DNA of 64,000 nt, taken from NCBI RefSeq assembly GCF_017254845.1, contig NZ_JAFKCU010000001.1:951048-1015047 (forward strand), written 5' to 3'. Position numbers and translations under genes: made by a program. Shown here one piece after another: positions 31,660 through 61,934 of this stretch. Numbering within the stretch: the stretch's first letter is position 1; each line of letters starts with the position of its first letter. The DNA is from Algoriphagus pacificus (GTDB taxonomy: Bacteria; Bacteroidota; Bacteroidia; Cytophagales; Cyclobacteriaceae). The notes beneath the pieces were generated by a model that was not told the origin of the DNA, searched no databases, and saw only the letters and a list, made by a program, of their open reading frames with translations.

Positions 31660-34600
31660 TTATTTTGGGTCTAGTGGTAAAGTGATGATCATCTCAGTCC
31701 CAGTACCCACAGAGCTATTTACTTTCAATTCTCCCCCATGGGCTTTGATGATGTCATGGGTAATAGAGAGCCCTAAACCAGTGCCTTCGGTTCCTTTTTT
31801 GGTGGTGAAAAATGGCTGCAGGATCTTTCCGAGAATTTCTTCAGGTATCCCTGGTCCATTATCTTCAATACTTAAAGCTACTTTGTCTTTTAGCTTGGAA
31901 GTTTTCACGGTAAGTTTTGGAGTGTATCTACCCGATTCTGAGGACTTTAATTTTTCCCGCATCGCATCAAAAGCATTGTTGGATAGATTTAAAATCACTC
32001 TGGAAAAATCCTCGCTGATTAATGAGATTTCACCAACTTCGGGACCCAATTGAAATTCTATTTCCACATTTATTGGAGATTTTCCTGCCCGCATGCCATG
32101 GAAGGAAAGGTTCACAAATTCCTTCACTAGTGGATTGAAGGCCTTTTCTTCTCGATTATTACCAGATGCCCTGCTGTGTTGTAGCATGGATTTTACGATG
32201 CCGTCAGCTCGGGTTCCATGCTCGTGAACTTTTGCCAGATTGCTTTTTACATCTTCTAGGATAGCAATGATCTCTTCTTTGGTATCGGAGGATTCCAGAT
32301 TTTCTAATTCTTCAAAAACCTCTTCGATTAGTTCTCTGCTGAGGTCGGAGAAGTTATTGACAAAGTTCAGTGGGTTTTTGATCTCATGAGCGATCCCGGC
32401 AGTCAGTTGCCCAAGGCTTGCTAATTTCTCTTGCTGTACAAGTTGCTCCTGAGCGGCTTTCAATTCTGTAAGCGCTTTTTCAGCACGGGCTTTCGCTTTT
32501 TTAAGTCGCTTTAAATCTTCTTTTGCTTGCGAGAGATCTTTAAATCTTGAATAGGCTAAAGAAAAAACCAATGCTGCCCGATGTAAAAGATCCCAACTTT
32601 CGCTGGAAATTTCTCCTGGTGTAGCTGCTCCAATTGCTCCATTCGAAAATTTAGTCAAATGATACGTGCGTTCCGGGATTTTAGTACCGTAATAGCCATC
32701 AAGTTTCGGAGATTGGTTTGCACAGTAATTGATCCATTCAACTCGGTTTTCTCCCTTCATTAGAATGGAAGTTTTGGTCTGATCACTAGTATAAAAATCC
32801 AGCATTTGTCTCCCCACCCAAGTTTCATTGTAATTGAGGTTAAAATGATCAGCCAAATAGGTTTTTTTGCCATCTCGAATGTCTTTGATCGAATACCAGC
32901 ATTCTGCTTCTCCGGCGGATTTGTTGATATAGATGGAGCTGGTTTCCAACTCTTCTACACCCAATAAACCCATTTCCTCTCGCATTACCTGAGCTACTTC
33001 TATGAGCTCTTCCGGTTCCTGCATGGCCATAGCTCGAGCCCTGACCCGTTCAAGTGCAAGTTCAATTTTTGCTTTTCTAGTCTGCTTTTCAGAGGTAAGT
33101 AAATCTTCAAAACGTCTATATGCCAAGTCAAACACACTGGCAAATCGGACCAAAGTAGCCAAAGATTCTTCAGGGGGATTTGGAACCTGACCTGGCAAAC
33201 TGAATCCAATTTCACCATGAGTAGTTCGTGCTATCACAAAGGTCAGACCCCCAATTGACAAAATATCTTCTTCCGAAGGAGCGTGGGGATCCGCCAAATG
33301 ATACTTGCCATAGGTGTTCATTTTATCGATATAATCCCAGGCCTCAGGCCCATTCAAATCCAAAGCAATGATGGGAGAGTCACTCTTTTCCCAGGCAGCT
33401 AGTCGGGGGATTTCATCATGTACAAACTTGGGTACCGAGATGATCATCCCCACTCTATCACCCTCTTCTGAAGTCATTGACATTTCATAGCTTTCAGGGG
33501 TCCATTTCATATGCCAAAAATAGTCTGCTTCATGTCCAAGAAGAACGAATTCCTTTCGCATGGATACTACTATATCAAAGAGTTCATCCGAATGGCTCAT
33601 GGCAGTCACCTGTGCCCGAATGCGTTGGAGAGATAATTCCAATTTAGCTTCCTTGGCCTGAGCTTCAGCTTTGCTTAGGTCAAGGAATCGTGTGTAGGTC
33701 AGGTCAAAAACCTGGGCAAAGCGCTTAAAAATTTCCTCTTCCTCGCAAGGGACTTCCTTGATTATCACCAGGTACCCAGTCTTGAAATATGCCGCATGTA
33801 GGCGTTGCCATTTTGGACGTGGAATGCCTGATGCTTCCATTTCCTCAAATATTTGTGCTGCAATTGGGATTTTCATGAGCCAATCATAGTGCTCCTGAAG
33901 CTTCTTGTTTTCTAGGGTGACAGTTCTATAAGCTTCCCCCTTTTCCCAACCTTCATAGAGATTTTCATGGGCAAAGTCTCCCACATTCGGTAGAGAAAAT
34001 GGTTGAATCAATCCATTATCTAAACTCAACCACCACTCATCTTCTTGCCTGTTTTTTTCACATAGTACAAATCCGCAAGTCCAAAGATTATCGACCAGTG
34101 CGTTCAGCTCTCTAAATAAAACTGTAGCTACTTCACCCAACTCTTCGGCTTTTTGCATTCCCATGGTTCGCGAACGTACTCGCTCTAAAGCTGCTTCGAT
34201 GCGAGCTTCCTTCGCCTGTTCTTCTGCTTTTAGAAGGTCTATAAAGCGGGTGTAGGTCTGATCGAAAACTTTTGCGAAGCGCATAAATATATCATGAGCT
34301 TGGACATAGGGTTCAAGCGTAATGAAAAGTAGATTACCATGAGAAAAATTAAATACATGGTGAATTTGTCTTTCTGGCATTGGGTTTCCGGCAGCAATTG
34401 ATATTTCAAAGGCCTTGTCTAAGAGAGGAAAGGATCTTAAATAATTGAAATAGGATTGCATCTCCTCACCCTTGAAATCTTTTAGAACAAAGCTTTTTTT
34501 ATTTTTCCAATGCTTGTATTGTTCCTGATGCCATTCATTTTCTGAAATAGGCATTCTAAAAGGAGGGTTCATAGAGCCATCTGCATTGCACATCCACGAA

Positions 34601-36402
34601 ATCAACTCATCCTTCTCCTCATCCCAAATAGTGAATCTACTGCTGTAGGTGTTCACTCCTAAATCATGCAATTGCTGAAAAAGTAAAGAAGATGCTTCCG
34701 CCAGTTCTTTGCTCTCTTGCATCGCCATAGTACGTGCCCTTACTCGCTCCAAAGCAAGTTGGATTTCTGATTCCCTAGCTTGTGCTTCTGCTTTTTGGAG
34801 ATCGAGGAAGCGGCGATAAACTAAGCCAAAAACCTTTGCAAATCGAAGTCCTATACTCAATTCACTTTGCAAAAGCTTTCTCCTAGAAATGACATTAACG
34901 GAACCTTCGGCAAAAAAGAAACCATAATAAAATTCTCGTTCAGGAAATTCTTCTGGGGTGGGTACATTTAAACTAGTGGAGGCAATTTTGTAATATTCTA
35001 TTAGCTCTTTGCCAACCATTTCAGCAAAAAAGTAGTCTTCGCCATTTCTGGCTGCCGCTATATAATTTCTGTAAAAATAATGTTGTCCTCCCTTTGCCGA
35101 TCCCAAGATTTTGGTTTCAGATTTCCCATCTTTTTCAGCCACTAGCCAAAGTTCTGCTTCATCCTTTTCAGTATCTATTAAGGCAAGTCCTCCGCGCACA
35201 GAATCAATGCCCAATTTATTTAGCTCCTGAAATACAACTAGTGCAGTGTCCCCGATTTCTGAGCTGGAATGCATGCTCATAGATCTGGATCTTACTCTCT
35301 CCAAAGCAAGTTGGATTTCTGATTCCCTAGTTTGTGCCTCAGCTTTTTGGAGATCTAGAAAACGGGTATAAGCCTGCTCGAAAACCTTACCGAAGCGCTC
35401 AAGAATATCTAAATCCTGCTCGGAAATGTAATTTTCACTGACTGTTTGAAGGCCACTATATTTAAAAAATGTAAAGCCGGCTACATAGCGTTCAAGAGCT
35501 TTATTGGCATCTTGGACATGCTTTGGAAAACGGCTGAATTCTGTCTTTGAGTAGAGGTATTCATCATAGATTTTTTTCTCTTCTCCTTCTATGGTGTAAA
35601 CAAATCGCTTTTTCTGAGCCTTCCAAGCATCCCACATCGCATCATGAAATGGATAATCTTCAAACTTCATGTAATAGGACTCCGGGTCTTTTCCCGTTTC
35701 CGGATTGGCCGCCCAGACCGTGTTACTCATATCTTCCTCATCAATCAGATTGATGATACAAAAGGTAAGTGTGAATTCCAGATTAGTAAACTCTTGAAGA
35801 AGCGTGTCCACAACAGATGATAATTCTGAGGAATGATGCATAGCCAGGCTTTGGGCTCTCACCCGTTCCAGCGCACTTTCGATTTCCAGCTCTCTATTTT
35901 TATTCAGTAGGTCTGCTGTTTTTTCTGATACTAGTTTTTCCAGTTCCTCGGCCTTCTTTTTATAATTTTCAATCCCCCAGGTATCCTTATCACTTTCAAC
36001 TGGTTCGGGTTTGGAGCCATGCCAATGAATGACCTTCCATTGATTATTGCTATAGTTCAATACGGAAGAAAATCGAAAATACATTTCAATTGATTCTTCT
36101 TCATTTTGGATTGTTAAATATAAATCCTCAGCAAAAACCACTGTGTTTTCATCCGCTGAGGTGTATTGACCCATCGGCACAGTCCGCCAGGAAACTTGAA
36201 GTCCAGTACTTTGATTTTTTTGATTTTCCAGAAGTTTCTTAAACTCCTTCAAGCTTTGAACCTTTTCATCTATGGCAGTTCCAAACCCAACAATATTTTC
36301 ATCAACTATTTTTTCTAATAGGCTGGGGTTTTCACCACTTATGCCCACATTCATAAATTCCTGATACGTATCGATGAGCAACTTATTTTTATCTCTTTCC
36401 AT
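31660..36402 (-). CDS. Giant soluble histidine kinase: NTF2-like domain plus six repeated sensor modules
   Basis: A 1580-residue protein without signal peptide or membrane helices. Residues 1-130 look like a SnoaL/NTF2-like fold (YFRFSSVLNYSNNQWKVIHW, then HGSKP). A coiled coil (about 145-185) follows, then six modules of about 190 residues. Each begins with a helix of the type ALERVRSRSMAMHSSSELG, continues as a mixed alpha/beta domain with WK and Y/W motifs, and ends RFAKVF..TYTRFLDL.KAEAQA. The fold may be GAF-like but I cannot assign it. The kinase core (about 1310-1580) has [63 protein letters not shown] and GTGLGLSITHDI. It lies five bases after the kinase at 36408, so the two are co-transcribed. 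Closest relative: the kinase at 56610. Confidence 0.88.
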   Translation of the reverse strand: MERDKNKLLIDTYQEFMNVGISGENPSLLEKIVDENIVGFGTAIDEKVQSLKEFKKLLENQKNQSTGLQVSWRTVPMGQYTSADENTVVFAEDLYLTIQNEEESIEMYFRFSSVLNYSNNQWKVIHWHGSKPEPVESDKDTWGIENYKKKAEELEKLVSEKTADLLNKNRELEIESALERVRAQSLAMHHSSELSSVVDTLLQEFTNLEFTLTFCIINLIDEEDMSNTVWAANPETGKDPESYYMKFEDYPFHDAMWDAWKAQKKRFVYTIEGEEKKIYDEYLYSKTEFSRFPKHVQDANKALERYVAGFTFFKYSGLQTVSENYISEQDLDILERFGKVFEQAYTRFLDLQKAEAQTRESEIQLALERVRSRSMSMHSSSEIGDTALVVFQELNKLGIDSVRGGLALIDTEKDEAELWLVAEKDGKSETKILGSAKGGQHYFYRNYIAAARNGEDYFFAEMVGKELIEYYKIASTSLNVPTPEEFPEREFYYGFFFAEGSVNVISRRKLLQSELSIGLRFAKVFGLVYRRFLDLQKAEAQARESEIQLALERVRARTMAMQESKELAEASSLLFQQLHDLGVNTYSSRFTIWDEEKDELISWMCNADGSMNPPFRMPISENEWHQEQYKHWKNKKSFVLKDFKGEEMQSYFNYLRSFPLLDKAFEISIAAGNPMPERQIHHVFNFSHGNLLFITLEPYVQAHDIFMRFAKVFDQTYTRFIDLLKAEEQAKEARIEAALERVRSRTMGMQKAEELGEVATVLFRELNALVDNLWTCGFVLCEKNRQEDEWWLSLDNGLIQPFSLPNVGDFAHENLYEGWEKGEAYRTVTLENKKLQEHYDWLMKIPIAAQIFEEMEASGIPRPKWQRLHAAYFKTGYLVIIKEVPCEEEEIFKRFAQVFDLTYTRFLDLSKAEAQAKEAKLELSLQRIRAQVTAMSHSDELFDIVVSMRKEFVLLGHEADYFWHMKWTPESYEMSMTSEEGDRVGMIISVPKFVHDEIPRLAAWEKSDSPIIALDLNGPEAWDYIDKMNTYGKYHLADPHAPSEEDILSIGGLTFVIARTTHGEIGFSLPGQVPNPPEESLATLVRFASVFDLAYRRFEDLLTSEKQTRKAKIELALERVRARAMAMQEPEELIEVAQVMREEMGLLGVEELETSSIYINKSAGEAECWYSIKDIRDGKKTYLADHFNLNYNETWVGRQMLDFYTSDQTKTSILMKGENRVEWINYCANQSPKLDGYYGTKIPERTYHLTKFSNGAIGAATPGEISSESWDLLHRAALVFSLAYSRFKDLSQAKEDLKRLKKAKARAEKALTELKAAQEQLVQQEKLASLGQLTAGIAHEIKNPLNFVNNFSDLSRELIEEVFEELENLESSDTKEEIIAILEDVKSNLAKVHEHGTRADGIVKSMLQHSRASGNNREEKAFNPLVKEFVNLSFHGMRAGKSPINVEIEFQLGPEVGEISLISEDFSRVILNLSNNAFDAMREKLKSSESGRYTPKLTVKTSKLKDKVALSIEDNGPGIPEEILGKILQPFFTTKKGTEGTGLGLSITHDIIKAHGGELKVNSSVGTGTEMIITLPLDPK

Positions 36403-36407
36403 TTAAA

Positions 36408-39400
36408 TCATTTGGGTAGATTGATGATGAATGTGGTGCCGCTACCGACGCTTGTGTTCACGGATAACTCCCCTCCATGTGCTTTGATGATATCATAGCT
36501 TAAAGACAATCCTAGTCCAGTTCCTGATCCAGTTGGCTTGGTAGTAAAAAAAGGCTGGAAGATCTTTTCTTTGATGGAGTCGGGGATGCCGGGGCCGTTG
36601 TCATGGACAGAAATTTCTACCCCTACCTGCCCGTCCGGCAGGCGGGAATCCCCTAAAGGGGACTTGGTCATCGTTGTTTTGACAGTTACTTCGGGTTTGT
36701 AGTCTTTGGGGGCAGAATTTGCCTTTTCGTTAACTGCATAAAAAGCGTTATTTATCAGGTTGAGCAATACCTTTCCGATGTCTTGGGGAATCACCGAAAC
36801 CTTGGGAAGATCAGGAGCCAAATCTGTTTTCAACTCACATTTGAATTCGGGTTCCTTTGCCAAAAAGGATTGATAACTCAAGCGGAGAAATTCTTCTGCT
36901 ATGGCATTTAGATTTGTTGATTCCTTTTGACCAGATCCTCTTTTGCTATGTTCTAGCATACCTTTGACGATGGCATCGGCGCGCTTTCCGTGGAGGGTGA
37001 TTTTATCTGAATTATCTCCTAGATCTTTTAGAATAAACTTTGTTTCTTCGATATCTCCCTTTTCTAATTCTTCTACCGCCTCTTTTATCAATTCGCTATT
37101 CAACTCTGAAAAATTATTGACAAAGTTTAAAGGGTTCTGAATCTCATGTGCAATACCTGCTGTCAGCTCACCCAGTGAGGCCATCTTTTCGGATTGGATC
37201 AACTGGGCTTGGGTAGATTTCAGTTGGGAATAAGCTTTTTCTATTTCTTTTGCTTGGGCTAGTTCCCGATCCTTGGCCAATTCCCTTTCCTTTCGGATAG
37301 CTCTTTTCCGTAGCTCATTAATAATTACATAAACCAAAAGCACAAAAAAGACTAGATATAAAAAATACGCCCACCATGTTTGATACCAAGGGGGTAGTAC
37401 CTTAATGGTTAATTGAAGTGGTTCTTCATTCCAGATACCATCTAAATTTGCAGCTTTTAATTCAAGAATATAATTGCCGGCAGGTAGGTTGGTAAAAACA
37501 GCGTTTCCATTTCCACTTGCATCTTGCCAATTATCATCAAAATTGACTAAGCGGTACTGTGTGATATTTTTCCCACTTCCCCCAAAGTGGATGGATGCAA
37601 AATTTATATTTACGGTTGTGATTCCCGGAGGAATAAGCAGCGAAGAAATTGTATGGTTTGGCTTCTTTTCTGTGGAATCTAAAAAGCTTTGGTAGCTTTT
37701 TCCGTCAAGTGTAATTCCTCGAATGATGATTTTAGGCGGAAAAGGATTCGTTTTAATTTCCTTCGGATCAAAAACATTCATTCCACCATTTCCTCTAAAG
37801 TAGATTTTTCCAGAAGGGCCTCGATTATTAGGTTTTGTTTCAAAAGAATTGGATTGCAGTCCCCTTTCAATCCCAAATCTTACCGTTTTCCCAGTTTCTG
37901 GGTTGTATTGAAAAATACCATTAGAAGTTCCAAAATAAAGGTAGCCATCCTCATCATAGCTGAATGACCTAATTTCGAGATCTGGATAACCAAATTCTTC
38001 AAAGCTCTTCCAGAATTTTAATCCATCGTATTCTTCATCAGTGTAACCAAATCCATTGACTGTAGCAATCCAGATTCTTCCTTTTGAATCCAGAATCGGT
38101 CGAGAGGTAGAATAACCTAAATCTTGGCCAAAGAAATTACCTTGTTTGATAATAGCTTTGGTTTTGGTGTCTATTAACATCCAAGAGCTACTAGATCCAC
38201 TTCTTTGAACCAAAAGATTTTCTTTGGAATCTAACAACAGTCCTCGGAATCCAGAACCAGAAGTGTCTTTGACCACATGTGTGAATTCCTCTGTTTCAGG
38301 ATCAAAAAAATCTAATCCCTTAATATTAATGATCCAGAGTTTTTCACGAGGATCTTTTTGTATTATCCTGACCCAGTTTTGGCCTAAGGAAGCGGAATCC
38401 TCTGGGTCATATCGATATCTGGTAATCAATCCTGTTTTTGGGTCTATTCGGTTTAGTCCTCCATTTTGATCACCCGGGGAGCCGGTTCCTACCCAAAGCG
38501 TAGAATCAGAGGTTTCCGCAATGGCCCAAGGATAGGGATGGGATAATTCTGATCCAAAAGTTTTGCCAGCAGGTAGATCGGACTGCGCAGCTCCAATTCT
38601 GTGGAGTATGGACTTTCCATCTGCAGCAAAATGGATGAGTCCATTTTCCATAGAAATCCGCTGACCTATCCAAAAAGATCCATCATTCAGTTCATAAGAA
38701 GAAAGGATATCAGGGATGATTTTTCCTTGTTCATCCCGTAAAAGGCCAAAATCAGATTGATAGGTATTTAAAAGACTGATTCCATTGGCGAATCTAGCAA
38801 TCCAAATAACCCCTTGGCTATCCAAGTATAATTTGCATCCGTTATCACTGGACATTGGAAGTAGGTCTTTGCGGGTATTCGTACCAGAATGGATGGTTAA
38901 GGATTCCCCTGTTTCCACATTGATTTTGGTGATTGCATCGCGCTGGTTGAGCCAGATGAATTGATCATGAAAAACGTAAGATGCATCACTTCCAAGGCCT
39001 CTTTCCTTCAATTGTTCAGGTTCACTGAATTTTTTAAATGTCCAAGATTCAGCATCGGATTCCCGGGTAGCCAATCCATTCGGGTTTAAAAGAACTGTGC
39101 TTGAATTCCCGTAAGGAAGAATGATAGTTTGGCGGTATGTGGCAAAGGATGTTTTATTTATAGTGTTTTCATCTAATGGAAATTGTTCATAGCTAAATTT
39201 CCCGTCGGGATATCTCTTTCCTATTTTTGCACCTTTTCCACTTTCGAGAACTAAAATAAAATTCATTCTTCCGTCATCCCCAATTTGAAGATTAAAGACT
39301 TCACCTGATTCCTGCCCAGGCTCTAAAATAAATTTTTGAGTTTCTGAGTCAAGCTTCATGATTCCTTTTGTGGTGGAGGCAAATACTTCACCTTGCTTTC

Positions 39401-39794
39401 CCAAAAGGACTTGGAGATAACGCCTTTGAGGGTCAACGTCTGAGTAATATGTGAGACTGTCTTTATTTGAATCATAATAAAGTAAATTCCCAACTACAGC
39501 TTCTATCCAAACCCCTCCTTTTTCATCTGCTGTTACATACCTCCCTTCATGATAAATCTTCTTGTAGTTATTCCCATCAAACTGGAAAACCCCTTCCCAA
39601 GTACCCAGGTAAATAAATCCAAAACTGTCCTGAGTGACATCGGTAACTGAAGTGCTCGGTAATCCCTCATCTGATGTGATGTTGTTGAAAACTACATTTT
39701 GAGATATGTTTTGAGCATTCAGAGCCAAAGAAATCATGACTAAACAGCAGAGCTGAAACATCATAAAAAATGGTGCTTGGAATAGCTTTTTCAT
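36408..39794 (-). CDS. Reg_prop/Y_Y_Y sensor histidine kinase carrying an in-frame repeat insert
   Basis: A 1128-residue kinase with a signal peptide ending LNAQ. The periplasmic part has diverged Reg_prop blades (VFNNITSDEGLPSTSVTDVT, GFIYLGTWEGVFQFDGNNYK, RIWIATVNGFGYTDEE, YLYFGTSNGIFQYNPET), a Y_Y_Y domain (YRLVNFDDNWQDASG) and one membrane helix (WWAYFLYLVFFVLLVYVII). The cytoplasmic kinase has [59 protein letters not shown] and [12 protein letters not shown]. Just before G1 it contains SPLGDSRLPDGQVG, matching the palindromic DNA at 36626-36662 and lacking in most sister kinases. Its kinase half is nearly the same as that of the kinase at 41377. It is followed after five bases by the giant kinase at 31660. 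Confidence 0.92.
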   Translation of the reverse strand: MKKLFQAPFFMMFQLCCLVMISLALNAQNISQNVVFNNITSDEGLPSTSVTDVTQDSFGFIYLGTWEGVFQFDGNNYKKIYHEGRYVTADEKGGVWIEAVVGNLLYYDSNKDSLTYYSDVDPQRRYLQVLLGKQGEVFASTTKGIMKLDSETQKFILEPGQESGEVFNLQIGDDGRMNFILVLESGKGAKIGKRYPDGKFSYEQFPLDENTINKTSFATYRQTIILPYGNSSTVLLNPNGLATRESDAESWTFKKFSEPEQLKERGLGSDASYVFHDQFIWLNQRDAITKINVETGESLTIHSGTNTRKDLLPMSSDNGCKLYLDSQGVIWIARFANGISLLNTYQSDFGLLRDEQGKIIPDILSSYELNDGSFWIGQRISMENGLIHFAADGKSILHRIGAAQSDLPAGKTFGSELSHPYPWAIAETSDSTLWVGTGSPGDQNGGLNRIDPKTGLITRYRYDPEDSASLGQNWVRIIQKDPREKLWIINIKGLDFFDPETEEFTHVVKDTSGSGFRGLLLDSKENLLVQRSGSSSSWMLIDTKTKAIIKQGNFFGQDLGYSTSRPILDSKGRIWIATVNGFGYTDEEYDGLKFWKSFEEFGYPDLEIRSFSYDEDGYLYFGTSNGIFQYNPETGKTVRFGIERGLQSNSFETKPNNRGPSGKIYFRGNGGMNVFDPKEIKTNPFPPKIIIRGITLDGKSYQSFLDSTEKKPNHTISSLLIPPGITTVNINFASIHFGGSGKNITQYRLVNFDDNWQDASGNGNAVFTNLPAGNYILELKAANLDGIWNEEPLQLTIKVLPPWYQTWWAYFLYLVFFVLLVYVIINELRKRAIRKERELAKDRELAQAKEIEKAYSQLKSTQAQLIQSEKMASLGELTAGIAHEIQNPLNFVNNFSELNSELIKEAVEELEKGDIEETKFILKDLGDNSDKITLHGKRADAIVKGMLEHSKRGSGQKESTNLNAIAEEFLRLSYQSFLAKEPEFKCELKTDLAPDLPKVSVIPQDIGKVLLNLINNAFYAVNEKANSAPKDYKPEVTVKTTMTKSPLGDSRLPDGQVGVEISVHDNGPGIPDSIKEKIFQPFFTTKPTGSGTGLGLSLSYDIIKAHGGELSVNTSVGSGTTFIINLPK
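36626..36662. repeat. In-frame double palindrome in kinase gene (copy 1)
   Basis: CCTGCC CGTCC GGCAGG (6-base arms) is followed after six bases by TCCCCT AA AGGGGA (6-base arms). The block encodes PLGDSRLPDGQ between beta strand and G1 box. The identical block occurs at 41598-41634 in a paralogous kinase; kinases at 25935, 30116, 43791 and 52881 lack it. Confidence 0.75.
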
Positions 39795-39885
39795 TAAAAA
39801 AACTGTCTAAATAAAATGTGTCAGAATGCCACAGGAGAGATCAACTAATGAATGAAGAGAGGCGAAAAACAAGAATTCAAGTTTG

Positions 39886-40650
39886 TTATTTCGCTGTTTG
39901 GTTTAGTTCTCCTTCAATCAAATCTATAATTCTAGTTAATCTCGGTGTGAAGATTCGCTCCTTGTAGCCGGCTTCAAGAACACTCTTTTGGATAATAATT
40001 TTCAGAAGATACTGAATTTCAGAGTCATTTGACATGGCTTCGAGATCAAATTTTACAGAAGCATAATTTCTTGACTCATTATCTGTGATGTTCACATCAC
40101 CAAAATCCGGATCCATGTATTTCAAGATACGCTCTGAAAATTGTTGAATGGGGCCTTTGTTCCCATCTTCTATTCTGAAGCTGTATTCGAGAAAAGTTTG
40201 GTAATCAGCCATCCGCCTTTTCAGATCTTTATTATCGATAAGGCTTAAAGTCCCAGAGGATTTCATTTCCTCGTAGGTAGGAAGGGTTGGATTAAAATAA
40301 TGGACAAAGCCAGTTCTTTCCAAAGCGAAGACTGTCTCTATACTGTCCACTTGAGAGGGGAGTTGCTCAAGTATAGCTAAAAGAGTTCTTGCATAAGCTT
40401 CTCTTTGATTAATAAAGCTTAGCAAAATATCCAGTCTATTTTGGTTTTCTTCAAATTCAGTTTTTAGACTTTCAAGGAGGATGACTTTTTGTTTTTTCAG
40501 TTTGTTTTCCTCATTCCAGTTATTGACTTGAAGAGCTATTAAAATCCCAATCACCACAAGAAATATCTCGCCTATGGCATAAACCAAGTATCGAGTGACT
40601 CGATTCTGATTAAGTAGTTTCTGGCGGATATGTTTGAATATTGGCACCAT
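39886..40650 (-). CDS. DUF6090-type membrane protein
   Basis: A 254-residue member: MVPIFKHIRQKLLNQNRVTR, membrane helix GEIFLVVIGILIALQVNNWN (about 28-47), then a charged helical domain with coiled-coil segments (FEENQNRLDILLSFINQREA). The N-terminal motif is slightly changed (IFKHIRQ instead of FFRKIRQ). Its ATG shares one base with the TAA of the preceding DUF6090-type gene (TAATG), so the pair is translationally coupled and lies at the end of the TPR-kinase/PDZ-kinase operon. Function unknown; tight coupling suggests both subunits work together. Confidence 0.85.
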   Translation of the reverse strand: MVPIFKHIRQKLLNQNRVTRYLVYAIGEIFLVVIGILIALQVNNWNEENKLKKQKVILLESLKTEFEENQNRLDILLSFINQREAYARTLLAILEQLPSQVDSIETVFALERTGFVHYFNPTLPTYEEMKSSGTLSLIDNKDLKRRMADYQTFLEYSFRIEDGNKGPIQQFSERILKYMDPDFGDVNITDNESRNYASVKFDLEAMSNDSEIQYLLKIIIQKSVLEAGYKERIFTPRLTRIIDLIEGELNQTAK

Positions 40651-41372: not shown

Positions 41373-41376
41373 TGGT

Positions 41377-45938: not shown

Positions 45939-46087
45939 ATCACCTTTGTAAATGTGAATTCATAGGCCTTGCTCAGATTGGTAATATTTCATTTTACCCC
46001 TTCGTTAAAAGGCTTCATTTTTATTTTATTTATGCAAAACTCTCATGATCAACTTATGAGTTTTTATTCAATTTTAATTTAAGAAAA

Positions 46088-46118
46088 GAAACGTATGAAA
46101 TACTATTCCATACGTTTC
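46088..46118 (-). terminator. Terminator after the giant secreted protease-like gene
   Basis: On the minus strand GAAACGTATG, an 11-base loop and CATACGTTTC form a perfect ten-base stem followed by TTTTCTT. It begins 22 bases past the stop codon of the gene at 46141. Confidence 0.7.
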
Positions 46119-52320: not shown

Positions 52321-52880
52321 GGCATTAAAAGTTTAAAGAATTAAATATTAATCAGAAATGATATGGTTTTTGATAGAGCCTTAAATCAAAAAAAAGTATC
52401 AAAAACTATATTTTTCTGGTGGGATAAACAGAAATCTTACTAACAAAATGTATTTCTAAAATAGTCAAAAATTGATTGCCAAAATATTAAATATCAAATA
52501 TTTACAAATGTTAAAAGAGAATTAAAAAACCGTTGCTAAAAATAAAGAATTGATTGTTCTCTACTAACTTTAACTATTTAGCACAATATCAAAATGTATA
52601 TGAATATATTGTTATTGAAATTTAAAATTCTAAGAATAAACTAGATGATAAGAATTTTATTCTTTTTTTCAATTTTTGAATAAAAACTCCAATTATTATC
52701 TAATTAGTAGGTGATTTGAGATTTTTCTAGGAAGTTTCGATTAACTAAATGCCAGTAATTTGTTTTCGATTCTTTGAGAAGTATACTGGATCAAGGCTAT
52801 AAATTCAGCGAAAAACAGCTACTGGTTTATCACCCAAATGAGTTTTGAAGTATGCTTGAACTTTCAAAACCAAAAACTTG
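52321..52880. other. Long A/T-rich intergenic region
   Basis: About 560 bases upstream of the giant secreted protein gene, very rich in A and T, with no convincing gene or repeat copy. It must contain that gene's promoter; I cannot point to a specific TAnnTTTG element. The part next to 52881 lacks a clear terminator for the kinase. Confidence 0.5.
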
Positions 52881-55800
52881 CTAAGCTGGCAAATGGATCA
52901 AAAATGTAGTTCCTTCTTCTTCTTTTGATTCCACCCTAAATTCTCCTCCATGGGCCTTTACGATATCATAACTTAGGCTCAATCCCAATCCCGTTCCCGA
53001 ACCAGTAGGCTTGGTGGTAAAGAAAGGCTGAAAGATCTTTTCTTTCAAGGAATCAGGGATACCTGAGCCGTTGTCTTGGACAGAAATTTCAATTCCATTT
53101 TCAGTCTTATTTGAGCTTATTACAACCTCAGGTTTGTAGCCTTCAATTCCTGTTTTAGCTTTTTCGTCAACAGCATAGAATGCATTATTCACAAGATTCA
53201 AAATTACCCTGCCGATATCCGAAGCGACCACATTTACCTTGGGTAAATTAGGGTCAAGTTCTAGTTTGAAGTCAGCATTAAAACTCTTGTCTTTGGCCCG
53301 AAGGCCATGAAATGAAAGTCTGACGAATTCATCAGTCAAAGAGTTTAAATCGGTAGGAGCCTTAACTCCTTTATTTATTCGGCTATGTTCCAACATGCCT
53401 TTGACGATTGAATCGGCACGCTTTCCATGAAGGTTGATTTTACTTAGGTTATCTTTTAGGTCTTTCCCTATTGCTATAGCCTCTTCAATGTCTCCATTTT
53501 CCAATTCCTCATTCATTTCATCGACTAATTCCTCACTTACTTCGGAGAAATTATTTACAAAATTCAAGGGGTTTTGTATTTCATGAGCGATGCCTGCAGT
53601 AAGCTCACCAAGAGAAGCCATTTTTTCAGATTGGATCAGTTGAGCCTGGGCGGATTTTAGTTCGCTAAGGGTATGTTCGATTTTTGATTTTGCATCTTCC
53701 AACTGCTTGAAATCTTCGTATCTGGCATAGGCAACTGAAAAAGTATCTGCAAGATTCTGAACTAACTCGATTTGCTCCGGAGATAAGTCTTCTGCACTTC
53801 CTACATATAACATTCCCTGAGGAAATGGAATAAACTGAAGGGTCAAGGATTCAGGAGGCTCCTCGCCTCCTTGATAGGTGGTAGGGTTCTCTATTTGTTG
53901 TTGTTTCAGCAATATTTTTGTGAAAGCAAGGAATTGCTCCTTGTTCCAATGGTCAATGTAAATCTGTTGCTTTTTCCAGTGTTTAACACCGTTAGAACTG
54001 ATGTCATTACTGTCATAATTTAAATTGAGAGCAGCTAAAGGTTTTCCATCTGGAGTTGATAAATAAAAGCGGACTTTTTGTACTTTTTCATCGACGAACA
54101 TTAATCCACATCGGAAGAAGGGAACCCCCAGTCGCAGCAATTCTTTCCAGATTAAGGGAGTAATACGCTGCAAATCCTCCGTGTTTCTCATCGAGGCAAT
54201 TTCTGCTCTTACACGGTCGAGGGAAGATTGTTTGATGGCTTCTTTTTCGCGGGCTTCTGCTTGTTTGATATCCTTGAAACGTGTGTATGATTGGTCGAAT
54301 ACCTTTCCAAAGCGTTCCAGGACAGAAAATTTGTCATCAGATAAAGGTTCGATACAGGCAAGAAATAAGACTCCAAAATCATTAAATGTATTGTATAAAT
54401 AGACTTTTTCAGGAGCTCTCATTGCTTCTTGGACTTCCTTGGGTAGTCTTCCCAATTCCATTTCATTGAAAAGTACATCACACCAGCTTACCATGTTTTC
54501 ACCTTCCAAAATGTAAAGTTGCTTGGTCCTTTTTTCTTCCCAATATTTCCAATATTCCAGATAAACTGGATGATCCTGATTGGTAATTAAAAAGCTGTCT
54601 GTTCCGCTTTCCGCTTCTGGATTGGCTGCCCACCATCGGACAGAGCGGCTTTCCGGATAATAAATCCAAATGACAGCGCGCTCCATCTGTAATTCCAGAT
54701 TGGTCAATTCCTCAAATACTTTTGCAAGTATTAAATTCAATTCACCAGAATGCTGCATAGCCATGGAGCGGCTTCTTACTCGCTCTAAAGCCGCTTCAAT
54801 TTGTGATTCTCTGGCTTGTGCCTCTGCTTTTTTAAGGTCTAGGAAACGGGTATAGGATTGTTCGAAGACTTTGGCGAAGCGATCAATTAATGAATTCTCT
54901 TCTTTTGTGAATTGATGATTAGTAAAATTGAAAACCCAAAGGCCCGTGTTTTTCTGAATTCCCCAGGAAGTTTTAAATCCGTATTCTATGGATTGAATTC
55001 TTTTCCATCTTTCTTGTGTCACAGATATGCCAAGATTTGTTTTATCGTACAAGTGGTTATAAAAATCCAGAGTTTCTTGCCTCGTTAAATCAAAGCTTAG
55101 GAAAGTGTCTCCTCGATCTCGAGCTTCCCAAAATTTTGAAAATATTGGATGGTCAAAATAGGGGATATTCAAGCGAATAGGATAAATCATGTCTGGCGTT
55201 GCTGACCAAAAATGAAAGTCCTTTGATTGATCTTCAAAGGTGACTAATTGACAACCATCTATGGGAAGAGCTAAGCTTTGAAGTTGACGGAATGTTACCT
55301 CTACCACCTTCTCAAGCTCTTCACTACGATGCATTGCCATTGAGCGGCTTCTCACTCGCTCCAAAGCAGCTTCAATCTTTGACTCCTTTGCCAGGGCTTC
55401 TGCTTTTTGAAGGTCCAGGAAGCGGGTGTAGGTAAATTCGAATGCTTTGGCAAATCGGGAAAGGATTTCAATGGCTTCCTTTTTCAAAGGTTCAAAACTC
55501 ATAATGCCTAGAAATCCTTGCAAAAAACCGGCATCGGTCATCACAATTTGATCAGGTGGATATTTAAATAGTTTTTGATAATCCTCATCCTTAGCAACAT
55601 GGGGTAGGGTTGCAAGGAATGACATATAGTTTGCTAAATCCTCTTCCTGATAGATACGAGTATTAATTATTCCTCTGTCTTGCTTCCATTTCGTATAAAA
55701 TGCTTTTAATTGTTCTGATTGAATCAATGGAGTAATATGGCTTCCAGCCATGACCCGTCCATCAGCATGAGTCATCCAGACTTTGACTGTATCTGTAAGC

Positions 55801-56606
55801 GTATTAACATGACTGAAATAGGTTCTTGCTTCTTTTGGTAGTAACCCTAAAAAATCAAATTGCTGAAAAAAGACTGAAACTGTTTCATTCAGTTCAGCAC
55901 TATCTTTCATCAAAAGTGTTCGGTTACGTATTTTTCCAAGAGCTACTTCGATCTGTGCTTCTCTTGACTGGGCTTCTGCTTTCTGAAGGTCTTGGTATCG
56001 CGTATAGGTTAATGAAAAGACATCTGCAAATCGGGATAAAACTAGAAAGAGATCCTTTGAAAGTTCTTTTTCTGTCATAACCCAAAGAGAACCCTCAGGA
56101 ATAATGACATTATTCAAATAAAGCTCTTTTGGGAAATTAGAAAGGTAGATAGGCGCTTCAAAAGTTTGCTGCGCATAAATACTTTTAAAAAATGCTTCTA
56201 CCTCCGGTCCTTGAAGATGTGTGACATGGGTATTTTTCTTTTGTTGCCAATCTTGAAAAAGCTTCTTGGTACCTGGATGATGGTTCATATCTATAATACC
56301 ACCTGCAATAAAGATCCCTTCATTTCCAATTGCAGCAGACCAAGATTCCATGGTGCAATTTGCTTGGATAATGTTGAGTCCATTGACGAAGCTTTCAAAT
56401 CCAAGGTTTTCTAGTTCTTGAAATAGTTTATTTACTGCTTCGCCTACCATTTCACTGGAGTGCATGGCCATTGCCTTTGCTCTTACTCTTTCCAACCCAG
56501 CCTCAATCTCCAGCTCTCGATTTTTTGATTCCAACTCCTGAGCTTGTGCCTCGACTTTCAGTTGGAGCCTTTCAATTTCAGCTTCTATTTGGGCCTCGCT
56601 TTTCAT
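52881..56606 (-). CDS. Giant soluble histidine kinase with five repeated sensor modules
   Basis: A 1241-residue cytosolic kinase with no signal peptide, membrane helix or NTF2-like domain. It opens with a coiled coil (IEAEIERLQLKVEAQAQELE) that runs straight into module 1 (GLERVRAKAMAMHSSEMVG). Modules 2-5 begin with ALGKIRNRTLLM, ALERVRSRSMAMHRSEEL, ALERVRSRSMAMQHSGEL and SLDRVRAEIASMRNTEDL; each is about 185 residues and most end in a YTRF(L/K)D helix. The kinase core (about 960-1241) has [59 protein letters not shown] and [12 protein letters not shown]. The start lies three bases after the stop codon of the larger kinase at 56610, so they form one operon. Its catalytic core matches the TPR kinase at 43791, not its operon neighbour. 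Confidence 0.88.
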   Translation of the reverse strand: MKSEAQIEAEIERLQLKVEAQAQELESKNRELEIEAGLERVRAKAMAMHSSEMVGEAVNKLFQELENLGFESFVNGLNIIQANCTMESWSAAIGNEGIFIAGGIIDMNHHPGTKKLFQDWQQKKNTHVTHLQGPEVEAFFKSIYAQQTFEAPIYLSNFPKELYLNNVIIPEGSLWVMTEKELSKDLFLVLSRFADVFSLTYTRYQDLQKAEAQSREAQIEVALGKIRNRTLLMKDSAELNETVSVFFQQFDFLGLLPKEARTYFSHVNTLTDTVKVWMTHADGRVMAGSHITPLIQSEQLKAFYTKWKQDRGIINTRIYQEEDLANYMSFLATLPHVAKDEDYQKLFKYPPDQIVMTDAGFLQGFLGIMSFEPLKKEAIEILSRFAKAFEFTYTRFLDLQKAEALAKESKIEAALERVRSRSMAMHRSEELEKVVEVTFRQLQSLALPIDGCQLVTFEDQSKDFHFWSATPDMIYPIRLNIPYFDHPIFSKFWEARDRGDTFLSFDLTRQETLDFYNHLYDKTNLGISVTQERWKRIQSIEYGFKTSWGIQKNTGLWVFNFTNHQFTKEENSLIDRFAKVFEQSYTRFLDLKKAEAQARESQIEAALERVRSRSMAMQHSGELNLILAKVFEELTNLELQMERAVIWIYYPESRSVRWWAANPEAESGTDSFLITNQDHPVYLEYWKYWEEKRTKQLYILEGENMVSWCDVLFNEMELGRLPKEVQEAMRAPEKVYLYNTFNDFGVLFLACIEPLSDDKFSVLERFGKVFDQSYTRFKDIKQAEAREKEAIKQSSLDRVRAEIASMRNTEDLQRITPLIWKELLRLGVPFFRCGLMFVDEKVQKVRFYLSTPDGKPLAALNLNYDSNDISSNGVKHWKKQQIYIDHWNKEQFLAFTKILLKQQQIENPTTYQGGEEPPESLTLQFIPFPQGMLYVGSAEDLSPEQIELVQNLADTFSVAYARYEDFKQLEDAKSKIEHTLSELKSAQAQLIQSEKMASLGELTAGIAHEIQNPLNFVNNFSEVSEELVDEMNEELENGDIEEAIAIGKDLKDNLSKINLHGKRADSIVKGMLEHSRINKGVKAPTDLNSLTDEFVRLSFHGLRAKDKSFNADFKLELDPNLPKVNVVASDIGRVILNLVNNAFYAVDEKAKTGIEGYKPEVVISSNKTENGIEISVQDNGSGIPDSLKEKIFQPFFTTKPTGSGTGLGLSLSYDIVKAHGGEFRVESKEEEGTTFLIHLPA

Positions 56607-56609
56607 GGC

Positions 56610-59600
56610 TTATCTTGGGTCTAAGGGTAATAAAATCGTCATTTTAGTTCCATCATTTACTTTACTTGAGACCAATAAACTCCCCCCATGCGCTTTGATG
56701 ATGTCATGGGTTATTGATAGTCCAAGTCCAGTGCCTTCAGTTCCTTTCTTGGTGGTGAAAAATGGCTGCAGGATCTTTCCGAGAATTTCCTCTGGTATCC
56801 CTGGTCCATTGTCTATGAAATCCAGCATCACCTTGCCATTGGAACGATAAGTATTCACAGTCAATTTGGCTTCGTAATTTTCGCTTCCCAGCGCATTTAT
56901 TTTATCCCGCATCGCGTCAAAGGCATTGTTGCAGAGATTCAGAATCACTCTGGAGAAATCCTCAGAAATGATTTTCAACTCGCCTACTTCCTCTTTCAAT
57001 TGCAGGTCAATAGTTACATTGATGGGATTTTTGGCAGCTCTCATACCATGAAAAGCCAGGTTGACAAATTCTTTGATAATTGGATTGATGGCTTTGGATT
57101 CCATTTTGTTATTGGAAGCCCGACTGTGCTGCAGCATAGACTTGACGATCCCGTCAGCTCGGGTTCCATGTTCGTGAACTTTCGCCAGATTGCTCTTTAC
57201 ATCTTCCAGGATGGCGATGATTTCTTCTTTGGTATCAGAGGATTCCAAATTTTCCAATTCTTCAAAAACCTCCTCGATCAATTCCGAACTGAGCTCTGAA
57301 AAGTTGTTGACGAAATTCAGAGGGTTTTTAATCTCATGGGCAATCCCTGCGGTCAATTGTCCTAAGCTGGCTAGCTTCTCTTGTTGAATCAATTGCTCCT
57401 GAGCGGCTTTTAATTCCAATAGCGCATCTTCTGCTTTTTTCTTGGCGTCTTTGATCGCGATCAAATCTTTTTCGGCTTTTAGTGCATTTGCTTCGGCGAT
57501 TTTTAGGTCATTGAAACGGGTGAAAGTCAGATTGAAAACAGAAGCAAAGCGCACCAAAAGTGATAGAGTACTTGCTGGAGGTAAAGTATGAGTGGTTAGC
57601 ATCAACATCCCTTTGGAGAAGAAGGCGGCAGATTGCACGCGTTGATCCTGGAGTAGCTTTTTATCAAAAGGAATCCCAATTTCATTTTCACAATAGCTAA
57701 CCCAACTCTGAAGTTCTTGCCCTTTTAATTGGACTGTCAAAGTTTCTTTTTCTTCTTTCCAAGCCCGATAAAGTTTATTGATAACAGTTGCCTCATGAAT
57801 GCTGGCTTCAAATCGGGTTTTGATCAGATTTCCCCCCTGTTCGGTAGACCAAAATTCAACATTTTGATTTTCTTCAGAGACGATGGCAATGTTGATCCGC
57901 TCATGATCTACTCCAAGTGCAATCAACTGAGCAAAGAGTACAGCAGCTGTTTCTGCCAGCTCTTCTGAACTCTGCATAGCTAAAGTTCTTGATCTTACTT
58001 TTTCCAAAGAAGATTCAATCTGGGCTTCCCGAAGCTGCTCTTCCGATTTTTTCAAATCCTCAAAACGTTTGTATGCAAGATCAAATGCGGCTCCCATTTT
58101 AGTTAAAATCAATTCTATTTCCTCTGATGGGGGGTCCAATAAATCCAAGCACATTCTACCGCTTTCGAGCGTTACTGTCGGATGAAAAAGGTTTTTCATT
58201 CCGGTGGATTTGACAAATTGATCCGCCTCATCTGCTTCCTTGGATTTGCCATGATCTCTCAGCCATTGAAAAGTGACCTGCAAATCCTGTAAATCCTGGA
58301 CTACCAAAAAGTACTTTTCTTTTTTTTCAAAAATGCGGTGTGCGTAAAAATTGGGATCTGTGTTTTCTAATTTGAAACTTATATCAAAAGGCAGGTGAAG
58401 TTTTTCATTTGTCAATTCCAAGGAAGAAAGATCCCACATGCGATGATTTCCTTTGGGTTCTTTGATGAAAATGGTTGAGGCGGCTACCCCGGGTATGTCC
58501 AATCCCATAACCTCTTGCTTGAGTTTGAAAACCACATCAAGAATTTCCTCGGATTGAAACATTGCCAGAGCTCTTGCTCTCACTCGTTCTACTGCCAAAT
58601 TGATCTGAGCTTCTCGGGCTTGTTTTTCTGCTTTTTGTAGATCTAAGAAGCGGGTGTAAGTCTGTGAAAATACCCGGGCAAACCTGACCATAATTTGCTT
58701 TTGCTCCTCCTCAAGTTCTTCATCTGCCACAATATGTAAGTACCCATCTCGAAAATTAGCACAATAGAAATGGGGATTATTAGGCATCTCCTTAGTTGCA
58801 ATTGCCTTGGCTACTTCCGAATCTAACTGGTCAAAAACCAATTGAAGGTGATGTTTAAATTGGTCGGTTGTTGCTTTTTGATGAAAAAAGGGTTCTTGAT
58901 TTTTCCAGGCTTCATATCTGTCATTTAGAATAGTCTCTCCAGTTTTAGGTAGAGTAAACTCCTCTCTAGAGGTGCCGTCCGGCTTAGTAAGCCATAAAAC
59001 CTGATTATTTTCTTCTTCATTATAGATGGCATAGCCACATTGATTGATATTCTGGATACCTAATCGGTTTAGTTCAGTATTTAGAACCTCGGCAGCTTCT
59101 TGAAGTTCCTCAGTTCGATGCATTGCCATACTTCTTGATCTAACCCTTTCGAGTCCCGCCTCAATCTGAGCTTCCCTGGCTTGTGCTTCTGCTCTTTTTA
59201 AATCCAGAAAACGCGTGTAAGTCTGTTGGAATACTTTCCCAAATCGCATGAGAATCGCATTTTCCTGGGGGGTATAGGGTTTACTTTCGAAATTTTCAAT
59301 GTAGAGCCCGATGTTATCCAGCAAGACAGTAGAAATTGCCAGACCAGGGTAGGATAAATAGATTTCCCGAAGACCTTCAGCAGCATCTGGGATCAATTTA
59401 AAGAGGTCTTCATAAAATCTGTTTTTCTCTTCGAAAGTATGCAGGTTAGCGAAGAAGTTGCCTCCATTTTTCTTGGCCTCTAGAAAGCTATTCCAGTGAG
59501 GACAATCAAAGTAAGGAAGTGTGATTTGAGAAGGAACGCCGTTTTTATCAGCCAGCCAGATGAACATGTCTTCTCGGTCTTTGTAGTCCAGAATAAATCC

Positions 59601-61934
59601 GGTATGCTCCACTAGGATGTTTAAAGAGATAAATTGATCATAAACAACCTGAATCACCTCTTTTAATTCCTCACTTTTCTGCATTGCCATGCTGCGGCTT
59701 CGAACCCGCTCGAGCGCCAGTTCGATTTGAGTTTCACGGGTTTGATGCTCTGCTTTTTTCAGGTCCTCAAATCGCTTATAAGCCAGATCAAAGACTTTCG
59801 CGAAGCGAACCAAGGTATCCATAGCTTCTTTTGGAGGATTTGGAACTGAACCCGGCAGACTATATCCTATTTCCCCATGTGATGTTCTTGCCATCACAAA
59901 AGTCAAACCCCCAATATGGCGGATATCATCTAGCGTAGGTGCTTGAGGATCTACTTTTTCAAAATCCCCCCAAGTGATCATTTTATGCACATAATCCACA
60001 GCCGTTTCCGTCTCCATTGCTAAAACCAAGATGGGGTCTGTGCCTTTTTCCCAATCAGCTACCAATTGGATGTCTCCATGAATCCGTCTAGGTAAGCTCA
60101 TGACCATACCAATCTGAGTCCCATCCCCAGAAGTCATAGCTTTTTCGTAGGATTCAGGTAGCCATTGCATATGCCAGAAATAATTGGCCTCGTGTCCCAA
60201 AGCAACAAATTCCTTCCGCATGGAAACCATGATTTCAAGTAGCTCTGTAGACTCTCTCATAGAGGCTACCTGACCTCGGATCCTTTCCAGTGCAGCTTCA
60301 ATCTGTGCTTCGCGTGCTTGTTTTTCCGCTTTTTCTAAGTCTAAGAACCTTGTATAAGCTTGATTGAAAACCTTTGCAAATCGGATAAAAATATCATGTG
60401 CTTCTGGTACAGGTTTGTAGGTAATAAACAACAAATGGCCATGGTTGAAAAATGCGACATGGTCAATTTGTTTTTCGGGAAGGGGTACTCCAGAATTATG
60501 TAAATCTGTTAAAGCTTCTCCTAAGACAGGTAAAGTTTTGAGGTAATCATAATGCTCCTTGATGACTTCGGGGCCAAACTCCTGAATGTAAAGAGGGTTT
60601 CCTTTTTTACTTTCCTCATAGTACCTGAGGAAAATATTTTCGCGGGGAGTCTTATAGAAAGGGAGGATTCCAGCCATGGACGTAAACCATTCCAAATCCC
60701 AAGGCTTTCCACTGGTTGTTTCCTCATCGTAGATATGAAAAGCACATCCCCAATTCTCAATTCCTAACTTCCGGACCTCTTCTTCCAATAAAATGGAGGC
60801 ATCAGCTAATTCCTCACTTTTTTGCATGGACAAGCTTCTGGCTCTCAATCTTTCCAATGCCGCCTCGATTTGCGATTCTCTCGCTTGGGCCAAAGCATTT
60901 TGGATGTCTAAATAGCGCTTATAGGTTAATTCAAAAGTGTTTTTGAATGACTTGAGAATTTCTAATTTATCAGAACTGATAGGCTCATAAGTGGAGATGC
61001 CTATGGAGCCAGCTGCGAAGGAAAAGAAATAATAGCTGAGGATGGATATGTTTTCCAGTGCGGGATCGTCATTTTCACCCATTCCTTTTCTATAATCTCT
61101 CCATTCCTGAAGCTTTTTCCCTTTTACCTGAAACTCAGAGAATATGTCTTTCGAACTTCGGGTTTCTTTAATTAAGTTTTCTGTTAAAGGGTGACTTTTG
61201 TATTGGATAGTGGTAAGTGTTTTACCAGAATTAGGAGAAAAATCATAATTGAGTAAGGAATCCAGCTGATCTTGATAAATATTGATCATGGTGTTTCGGA
61301 GTGATTCGAAACCATGTTTTTTCAGTTCAGTAAAAATACTTTCAGCGATTTCGAGCAGATCTTCGGGCTTGCTCATTCCCATGGCAATCCCTCTTATTCG
61401 CTCTAATGAGTTCTGTATTTCAAGGTCCCTGGTTTTGTTTTCAAGTTCCACGGTTCGCCGATTAATAGCTTCCCGTAGCTCCTTATTTTCGGCACTGATC
61501 TGGTCATACCCTATTGTTTCACCTTCTTCAGCATTGCCATCAGGCGTAGAGAAATGCTGGTATATAAAGAGCCAACCTCGCTCTGTATAATGCATGGCTG
61601 ATGAAAACCGGAATCGATCGTAATAAGTCCATTCTGTCTCGTTCAGAAAGTATGCATCAAAAAAATGTGTTATTAAGACGATGGAACCCTGTTTCTCAAA
61701 AGTTTTCTTGTTGTTTCTAAGTTCTGTTTTACCTGCCAGTTGATCCGCAGTTTTTCTTAAAAAATCAGTCGTTTCCTTACGTGATAAATATTCCTCATTG
61801 TTAGTGGAGCCTATAAAATGATAAGCCTCATCGAAGTAGGAATCGTAAGTTTCTACGTCACCGGATATATAACTGCTGAGCCAGGTGTCATAAGCTTTTG
61901 ATATGGCAGCAGTTTCTTTTTTACTCAAATTCAT
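56610..61934 (-). CDS. Giant soluble histidine kinase: NTF2-like domain plus seven repeated sensor modules
   Basis: A 1774-residue kinase from the ATG at 61934 (MNLSKKETAAISKAYDTWLS); the ATG at 61955 adds seven hydrophobic residues of no clear purpose. Residues about 1-140 look like a DUF4440/NTF2-like domain (YDRFRFSSAMHYTERGWLFI). Seven modules of about 190 residues follow, marked by SLERIRGIAMGM, ALERLRARSLSM, ALERIRGQVASM, ALERVRSRSMAM, GLERVRSRSMAM, AVERVRARALAM and SLEKVRSRTLAM. The kinase core (from about 1490) has [63 protein letters not shown] and GTGLGLSITHDI. The core and several modules match the kinase at 31660. There are no membrane helices, so it should sense internal signals. 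It is first in a two-kinase operon with 52881. Confidence 0.88.
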   Translation of the reverse strand: MNLSKKETAAISKAYDTWLSSYISGDVETYDSYFDEAYHFIGSTNNEEYLSRKETTDFLRKTADQLAGKTELRNNKKTFEKQGSIVLITHFFDAYFLNETEWTYYDRFRFSSAMHYTERGWLFIYQHFSTPDGNAEEGETIGYDQISAENKELREAINRRTVELENKTRDLEIQNSLERIRGIAMGMSKPEDLLEIAESIFTELKKHGFESLRNTMINIYQDQLDSLLNYDFSPNSGKTLTTIQYKSHPLTENLIKETRSSKDIFSEFQVKGKKLQEWRDYRKGMGENDDPALENISILSYYFFSFAAGSIGISTYEPISSDKLEILKSFKNTFELTYKRYLDIQNALAQARESQIEAALERLRARSLSMQKSEELADASILLEEEVRKLGIENWGCAFHIYDEETTSGKPWDLEWFTSMAGILPFYKTPRENIFLRYYEESKKGNPLYIQEFGPEVIKEHYDYLKTLPVLGEALTDLHNSGVPLPEKQIDHVAFFNHGHLLFITYKPVPEAHDIFIRFAKVFNQAYTRFLDLEKAEKQAREAQIEAALERIRGQVASMRESTELLEIMVSMRKEFVALGHEANYFWHMQWLPESYEKAMTSGDGTQIGMVMSLPRRIHGDIQLVADWEKGTDPILVLAMETETAVDYVHKMITWGDFEKVDPQAPTLDDIRHIGGLTFVMARTSHGEIGYSLPGSVPNPPKEAMDTLVRFAKVFDLAYKRFEDLKKAEHQTRETQIELALERVRSRSMAMQKSEELKEVIQVVYDQFISLNILVEHTGFILDYKDREDMFIWLADKNGVPSQITLPYFDCPHWNSFLEAKKNGGNFFANLHTFEEKNRFYEDLFKLIPDAAEGLREIYLSYPGLAISTVLLDNIGLYIENFESKPYTPQENAILMRFGKVFQQTYTRFLDLKRAEAQAREAQIEAGLERVRSRSMAMHRTEELQEAAEVLNTELNRLGIQNINQCGYAIYNEEENNQVLWLTKPDGTSREEFTLPKTGETILNDRYEAWKNQEPFFHQKATTDQFKHHLQLVFDQLDSEVAKAIATKEMPNNPHFYCANFRDGYLHIVADEELEEEQKQIMVRFARVFSQTYTRFLDLQKAEKQAREAQINLAVERVRARALAMFQSEEILDVVFKLKQEVMGLDIPGVAASTIFIKEPKGNHRMWDLSSLELTNEKLHLPFDISFKLENTDPNFYAHRIFEKKEKYFLVVQDLQDLQVTFQWLRDHGKSKEADEADQFVKSTGMKNLFHPTVTLESGRMCLDLLDPPSEEIELILTKMGAAFDLAYKRFEDLKKSEEQLREAQIESSLEKVRSRTLAMQSSEELAETAAVLFAQLIALGVDHERINIAIVSEENQNVEFWSTEQGGNLIKTRFEASIHEATVINKLYRAWKEEKETLTVQLKGQELQSWVSYCENEIGIPFDKKLLQDQRVQSAAFFSKGMLMLTTHTLPPASTLSLLVRFASVFNLTFTRFNDLKIAEANALKAEKDLIAIKDAKKKAEDALLELKAAQEQLIQQEKLASLGQLTAGIAHEIKNPLNFVNNFSELSSELIEEVFEELENLESSDTKEEIIAILEDVKSNLAKVHEHGTRADGIVKSMLQHSRASNNKMESKAINPIIKEFVNLAFHGMRAAKNPINVTIDLQLKEEVGELKIISEDFSRVILNLCNNAFDAMRDKINALGSENYEAKLTVNTYRSNGKVMLDFIDNGPGIPEEILGKILQPFFTTKKGTEGTGLGLSITHDIIKAHGGSLLVSSKVNDGTKMTILLPLDPR

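Follow-up and report, generated by a model that had tools for sequence, protein, structure and literature searches.

Arrays of predicted GAF-fold sensor units in three soluble histidine kinases of Algoriphagus pacificus and their probable exchange as cassettes

The tandem GAF regions of the phosphodiesterases PDE2, PDE5 and PDE6 and of a cyanobacterial adenylyl cyclase (1ykd) consist of two domains. The passage of signals through chains of sensor domains is a long-standing question, which has usually been studied with one or two domains. In the portion of one earlier account that deals with the helices between such domains, the coiled coils joining GAF domains are described as poorly conserved and, in prokaryotes, as anti-parallel (PMC1592074). 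The same portion describes the S-helix, a conserved helical element that lies between sensor domains or ahead of a kinase (PMC1592074). According to the section of PMC12570481 concerned with them, NosP-type FIST proteins of other bacteria are heme-binding and exert control over a neighboring kinase that has no recognized sensor domain. Among the papers listed in searches of open-access PubMed Central, the titles and abstract openings contained no earlier account of arrays such as those described here.

The window analyzed, a stretch of 64,000 nucleotides from Algoriphagus pacificus (contig NZ_JAFKCU010000001.1, positions 951,048 to 1,015,047), encodes three large kinases, K1, K2 and K3, on the minus strand. 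K3 (31660-36402, 1580 aa) and K1 (56610-61955, 1781 aa, with an in-frame ATG alternative at 61934) each begin with a SnoaL_3 domain (36007-36318, Pfam E 3.3e-9, and 61542-61904, Pfam E 1.9e-16, respectively), followed by six units in K3 and seven in K1, and end in a HisKA-HATPase transmitter. K2 (52881-56606, 1241 aa) consists of a 28-residue N-terminal stretch, five units and a transmitter of the same kind. Their identity as histidine kinases is supported by Pfam, in which HATPase_c is far over the cut-off in all three. HisKA is over the cut-off in K2 and K3 and, at 25.6 bits, just below the cut-off of 26.9 in K1; the combined region spans 31663-32415 in K3, 52884-53612 in K2 and 56613-57365 in K1. 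Besides this kinase core and the two SnoaL_3 domains, no Pfam match above cut-off was obtained in the three proteins.

All of the units lie on the minus strand. In K3 they occupy 35332-35898 (unit 1), 34780-35331 (unit 2), 34216-34779 (unit 3), 33658-34215 (unit 4), 33082-33657 (unit 5) and 32512-33081 (unit 6). Those of K2 lie at 55968-56522, 55392-55967, 54816-55391, 54249-54815 and 53709-54248 (units 1 to 5), and those of K1 at 60885-61433, 60318-60884, 59742-60317, 59181-59741, 58608-59180, 58035-58607 and 57495-58034 (units 1 to 7). The original prediction described 18 repeats of about 187 residues in these three kinases, each with a characteristic helical start and a conserved end. Both motifs were right and the count of six, five and seven was borne out, with unit lengths of 180-192 aa; a simple pattern for the start motif caught 17 of the 18 units and missed the sixth of frame 56610 (K1), which begins AVERVRARALAM. 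Pairwise identity among the 18 averages 27% and ranges from 16 to 59%, the latter value being that between K1 unit 3 and K3 unit 5. When a profile of the 18 units was run against the whole genome, it returned exactly these 18 places at E ≤ 0.001 (best E 2.9e-68) and none outside the K1-K3 locus. The units are not a chance resemblance, because the profile finds exactly 18 places in this genome and many more in other genomes. Among 972 distinct near-full units, the columns R14, M20, R182, D185 and Q192 are kept in at least 99%. K1-K3 are soluble: as had been claimed from the first reading, they possess no membrane helices, with maxima of mean hydropathy in 19-residue windows of 1.13, 1.14 and 1.39, versus values above 1.6 in each of the five further window kinases examined in this way.

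Sequence comparison did not place the units in a described family. None of the 18 gave a convincing match in Pfam (best E 0.019) or NCBIfam (best E 0.0068), and there was no clear match to the Pfam families GAF and GAF_2, the former being hit by none of the units and the latter by one, at E 0.11. When 126 relatives were compared with Pfam, no GAF family was among the best 25 of the 45 weakly matching families. An hhalign comparison of the units with 21 GAF_2 domains was colinear over query residues 25-173 and not significant (probability 1.8%, E 0.028), and profile searches of the PDB with the units gave best E values of 0.15 and 0.37. By profile, no unit falls in a known GAF or PAS family, so the outcome that would have spoken against the original prediction did not arise. 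No ligand or pocket was identified for the units, and this counts against the explanation preferred below. A bilin chromophore site common to all units is unlikely, since no cysteine position is shared by all of the 16 largest unit types. At least one body cysteine is conserved in eight of these 16 types (C47 in three types and C30 in two), and a bilin is conceivable in single types only.

An AlphaFold model of a single unit, K3 unit 3, has a GAF fold (pLDDT 93.5), and both the model and its structural matches contain the GAF topology of a central sheet with N- and C-terminal helices. The earlier guess that the fold was GAF-like is thereby supported at the level of prediction. The structural matches to a model of three consecutive units (K3 units 3-5, predicted as a monomer) cover the second unit as well and barely reach the third. 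For the other unit types, the GAF fold may be assumed from K3 unit 3 and from the covered second unit. The units resemble the GAF families in predicted fold and topology; they differ in lacking a convincing sequence match and in the high conservation of their terminal helices. Taken together, they probably form a previously undescribed sequence family of cassettes with a GAF fold, which would act as ligand-binding sensors.

The three-unit model also provides evidence for the suggested helix between units. It contains three helices of 45-51 residues, two of which join neighboring units while the third enters the next unit, and, as in tandem GAF proteins, at least two GAF domains are set on a long helix. 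The spacing across the junction between units is exactly 24 residues in 746 of 746 junctions, and an independent pattern gave 24 residues in 707 of 707. It remains constant despite differences of up to 22 residues in the length of the unit body. Coiled coils between GAF domains are described as poorly conserved in the portion of PMC1592074 noted above, whereas conservation here is highest in the helix that links the units. The arrays further differ from the tandem GAF phosphodiesterases and the 1ykd cyclase in their number of units, 5-22 instead of two, and in their histidine kinase output. Like the S-helix as portrayed in that portion of PMC1592074, the junction is a conserved helical element found between sensor domains or before a kinase. 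In contrast to the S-helix, however, the junction helix is part of the repeated unit and its 24-residue spacing is invariant.

The units also occur in other genomes, and each of the following counts includes the own genome. The 18-unit profile matched 19 of 58 genomes of near relatives, all 19 from the same genus. At the level of the family, matches came from 40 of 245 genomes, representing 18 of 84 genera; in a sample drawn from the phylum, they came from 35 of 395 genomes, representing 25 of 170 genera. A scan of the genome collection retained at least 78 unit loci, the titles of which indicate Bacteroidota or near groups (Balneolaceae, Ignavibacteria) except for two MAGs. Loci L091 and L150 belong to these MAGs, which carry the labels Proteobacteria and Bacillota and whose array contigs are perhaps mis-binned Bacteroidota; the array of L150 is split over several frames. 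The longest array, from A. lacus, has 22 units in a single frame of 4,607 residues. Frames of 1,979 to 3,082 residues also occur in two single-contig genomes (G141 and G411), which argues against long arrays being assembly artefacts. An H-box is present in 67 of the 67 readable frames that have at least 200 residues past the last unit (107 frames in total, the window included). Measured from the preceding stop, the stretch ahead of the first unit falls into length classes of 15-122, 161-206 and 411-484 residues, the longest of which includes TPR and membrane-sensor types as judged by eye from the translation. The observation is real, and this surrounding evidence makes the arrays more unusual than first stated.

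The units form conserved types, which turn up at differing positions in different species. For the 972 distinct near-full units, the median identity to the best match is 79% in another locus and 37% in the same protein. Clustering of 966 units at about 45% identity yielded 113 types, 29 with at least 10 members and 46 with one; in these statistics some loci are the same genome twice, and a few near-duplicates remain after removal of exact duplicates. One type, represented by K2 unit 5, is the last unit found in the frame in 42 of its 42 members, and three types are mainly first (21 of 22, 18 of 21, the type of K1 unit 1, and 16 of 16), with incomplete frames counted as they are. Among the types listed, most others float in position. 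In each of the 16 largest types, a characteristic set of polar and aromatic body residues is conserved. After removal of six near-identical units, none of the 89 arrays with at least three near-full units, some of which end at contig ends, repeated the type order of another. Growth of the arrays by tandem duplication was rejected because only 3 of 831 adjacent pairs exceed 70% identity.

Comparison between related loci shows that whole units turn over. Genome G018 carries the same three kinases in synteny. All six units of K3 have counterparts there in the same order, while the five units of K2 match units 1, 2, 4, 7 and 8 of eight. In K1, units 1-4 match, the DNA similarity is lost within the first few residues of unit 5, and the kinase cores differ as well (52%). 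K1 unit 7 shares 92% identity with the unit that closes the array of an Algoriphagus aquimarinus kinase. Even within K3 the divergence from G018 is uneven, with 28% identity in the N-terminal domain and 98% in unit 1. Beyond this pair, two Cognataquiflexum species have 6 of 18 units in common at 60% identity or more, and two Ferruginibacter arrays of eight units each have five in common at 94-98%. Half-units are clearly rare. Ends of DNA matches (at least 450 bases at 80% identity) fall in mid-unit in 10 of 507 cases, versus about 279 if uniform, and in the outer parts in the other 497, although such ends do not represent independent events and alignments tend to stop at junctions because of the conserved linker. 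With shorter matches, the mid-unit ends number 17 of 519 (from 300 bases) and 37 of 571 (from 230 bases). Exchange driven by identical linker DNA is not supported: junction DNA is not homogenized, with an identity of 0.651 within and 0.641 between frames and a median longest exact run of 12 nt.

The three kinases belong to a larger cluster on the minus strand. A kinase with a regulator propeller (25935-29696, Reg_prop E 2.4e-66) and a further kinase (30116-31498) have related transmitters, as do kinases 36408 (propeller), 41377 (membrane) and 43791 (TPR), which lie with two DUF6090-like genes at 36408-45938. At least eight kinases of the window share one strand, and their dimerization regions are 61-96% identical (96% between K1 and K3, 88% between K2 and the TPR kinase). 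This likeness suggests that they act on shared or overlapping targets. At the end of the cluster are two candidate outputs on the same strand, a stand-alone receiver of 131 aa (25465-25860, Response_reg E 9.7e-23) and a receiver fused to a class III nucleotide cyclase (24428-25468). Relatives of the receiver-cyclase were found near units in 6 of the 78 listed loci, two of them incomplete, where the flanks extended over no more than 9 kb, and five further cyclase matches are present in the genome; both counts weigh against the receiver-cyclase as output. Other frames with the H-box pattern occur in 51 of the 78 listed loci. When 52300-62700 was scanned for promoters and terminators, the hits did not clearly outnumber those in shuffled sequence (17 versus 22.0, sd 5.0, and 12 versus 9.9, sd 3.2, respectively).

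Several other features of this neighborhood were observed. The kinase transmitters at 30116-61955 are unusually alike, as if homogenized by gene conversion, and the kinase at 25935-29696 contains a long run of near-identical regulator-propeller repeats. Between the kinases lies a secreted subtilase of 2,059 residues (46141-52320, minus strand) with Peptidase_S8, PKD_6 and Por_Secre_tail domains; its later half contains a series of short near-repeats, INARTMINGR among them. In G018, the place before K3 is taken by three FIST genes and a small kinase (L157:4696-9335); the window has other kinases and the protease at that place. DUF6090-like small genes are found beside kinases at 39886-41426, 62677-63405 and 17724-18479 (minus strand); three of the four are above the Pfam cut-off and that at 40650 is just below it. 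At C1:1074713-1077219 (L192, L194), elsewhere in the genome, the best-scoring of its cyclase matches lies about 1.4 kb from a FIST match, again FIST with cyclase.

The explanation preferred here, with moderate confidence, is that the units are phase-locked, interchangeable sensor cassettes that feed one kinase, with the receiver and the receiver-cyclase as its probable output. The last helix of each GAF body would continue unbroken as the first helix of the following unit, and the fixed 24-residue register would let any unit follow any other with the spine undisturbed. In a kinase dimer, the joined helices would make up a spine along which the states of many different units reach a single HisKA-HATPase transmitter. 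Every type of unit would probably bind its own small molecule or partner, so that one kinase could integrate 5-7 inputs in this window and as many as 22 in other genomes, the phase-locked helix conveying the sum of these cues. New inputs would arise when whole units are acquired or swapped from a pool common to kinases, and at least in some cases to species, rather than by local duplication. Finally, the adjacent receiver and receiver-cyclase would probably be the common target of the eight or more kinases of the window with related transmitters, giving a cyclic-nucleotide output.

The main rival is that the units are protein docking sites, for example for FIST-type auxiliary sensors or other kinases, and that an array is a platform by which many auxiliary sensors are brought together on one transmitter. 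FIST-like genes are present in 26 of the 78 listed loci, on the same strand in all 26 and within 200 bases of the unit frame in 14, and Pfam confirms four FIST proteins, of which three belong to G018 and one to L126. This resembles the control of neighboring kinases by NosP, as set out in the section of PMC12570481 mentioned above, and the residues specific to each type would suit docking equally. In contrast, the other 52 listed loci have no FIST in the flanks examined, and there are at most five FIST frames per locus for up to 22 units. Moreover, unlike NosP-FIST operons, this window has no FIST match, the two in the genome being elsewhere (C1:1074713 and on C47). Docking is considered unlikely on this evidence. 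Another proposal, that the units mainly lengthen or stiffen the kinase dimer and that their diversity is drift, would account for the strict junction register and for profile searches that gave no ligand family. However, individual types keep fixed polar and aromatic body residues, and dN/dS is 0.02-0.15 in all 13 calculable unit pairs (of 15). Types also recur within an array less than expected by chance (111 observed versus 141, sd 7), a diversity that spacers do not need, and a purely structural role seems very improbable.

The differences between arrays might instead reflect piecemeal loss from long ancestral arrays under vertical descent, with no exchange between lineages. When 68 frames with all units near-full were compared, 66 array pairs had at least three common units at 70% identity and none was identical in content; 41 of these pairs keep the order of the common units, as loss would predict, but 25 break it. 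Similarly, most cross-family unit pairs are near synonymous saturation. The best 60 of 71 such pairs have a median synonymous difference of 0.66, with 8 below 0.5, and because of this median most of the likeness of units across orders may be old conservation. Against loss alone, synonymous divergence between K3 and its G018 ortholog extends from 0.16 to saturation inside one gene (0.22 and 0.16 in units 1 and 2, 0.96 in unit 3, 2.17 in unit 5, saturated in units 4 and 6). In addition, one of the eight pairs below 0.5, formed by units of Maribacter and A. aquimarinus that stand at different array positions, shares 88% DNA identity (pS 0.35). Descent by loss without exchange is improbable in light of these comparisons.

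Overall, interchangeable cassettes remain the favored explanation, and these proteins would then be multi-GAF kinases with arrays of up to 22 sensor units, the types of which are shuffled between kinases. A broader view can be put forward tentatively as quite possible. Bacteroidota may share a pool of about 100 or more interchangeable GAF cassettes with common helical connectors, exchanged as whole units partly across families and orders, and rod-like kinases may read up to 22 signals on one spine. The types found first or last would then be caps and the interior types inserts, and each strain would have its own combination. The library of types represents a set of natural sensor parts from a family without a name in Pfam or NCBIfam. 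Nature has run hundreds of domain swaps at one connector length, so that the rules by which GAF domains are coupled to kinases become readable and testable.
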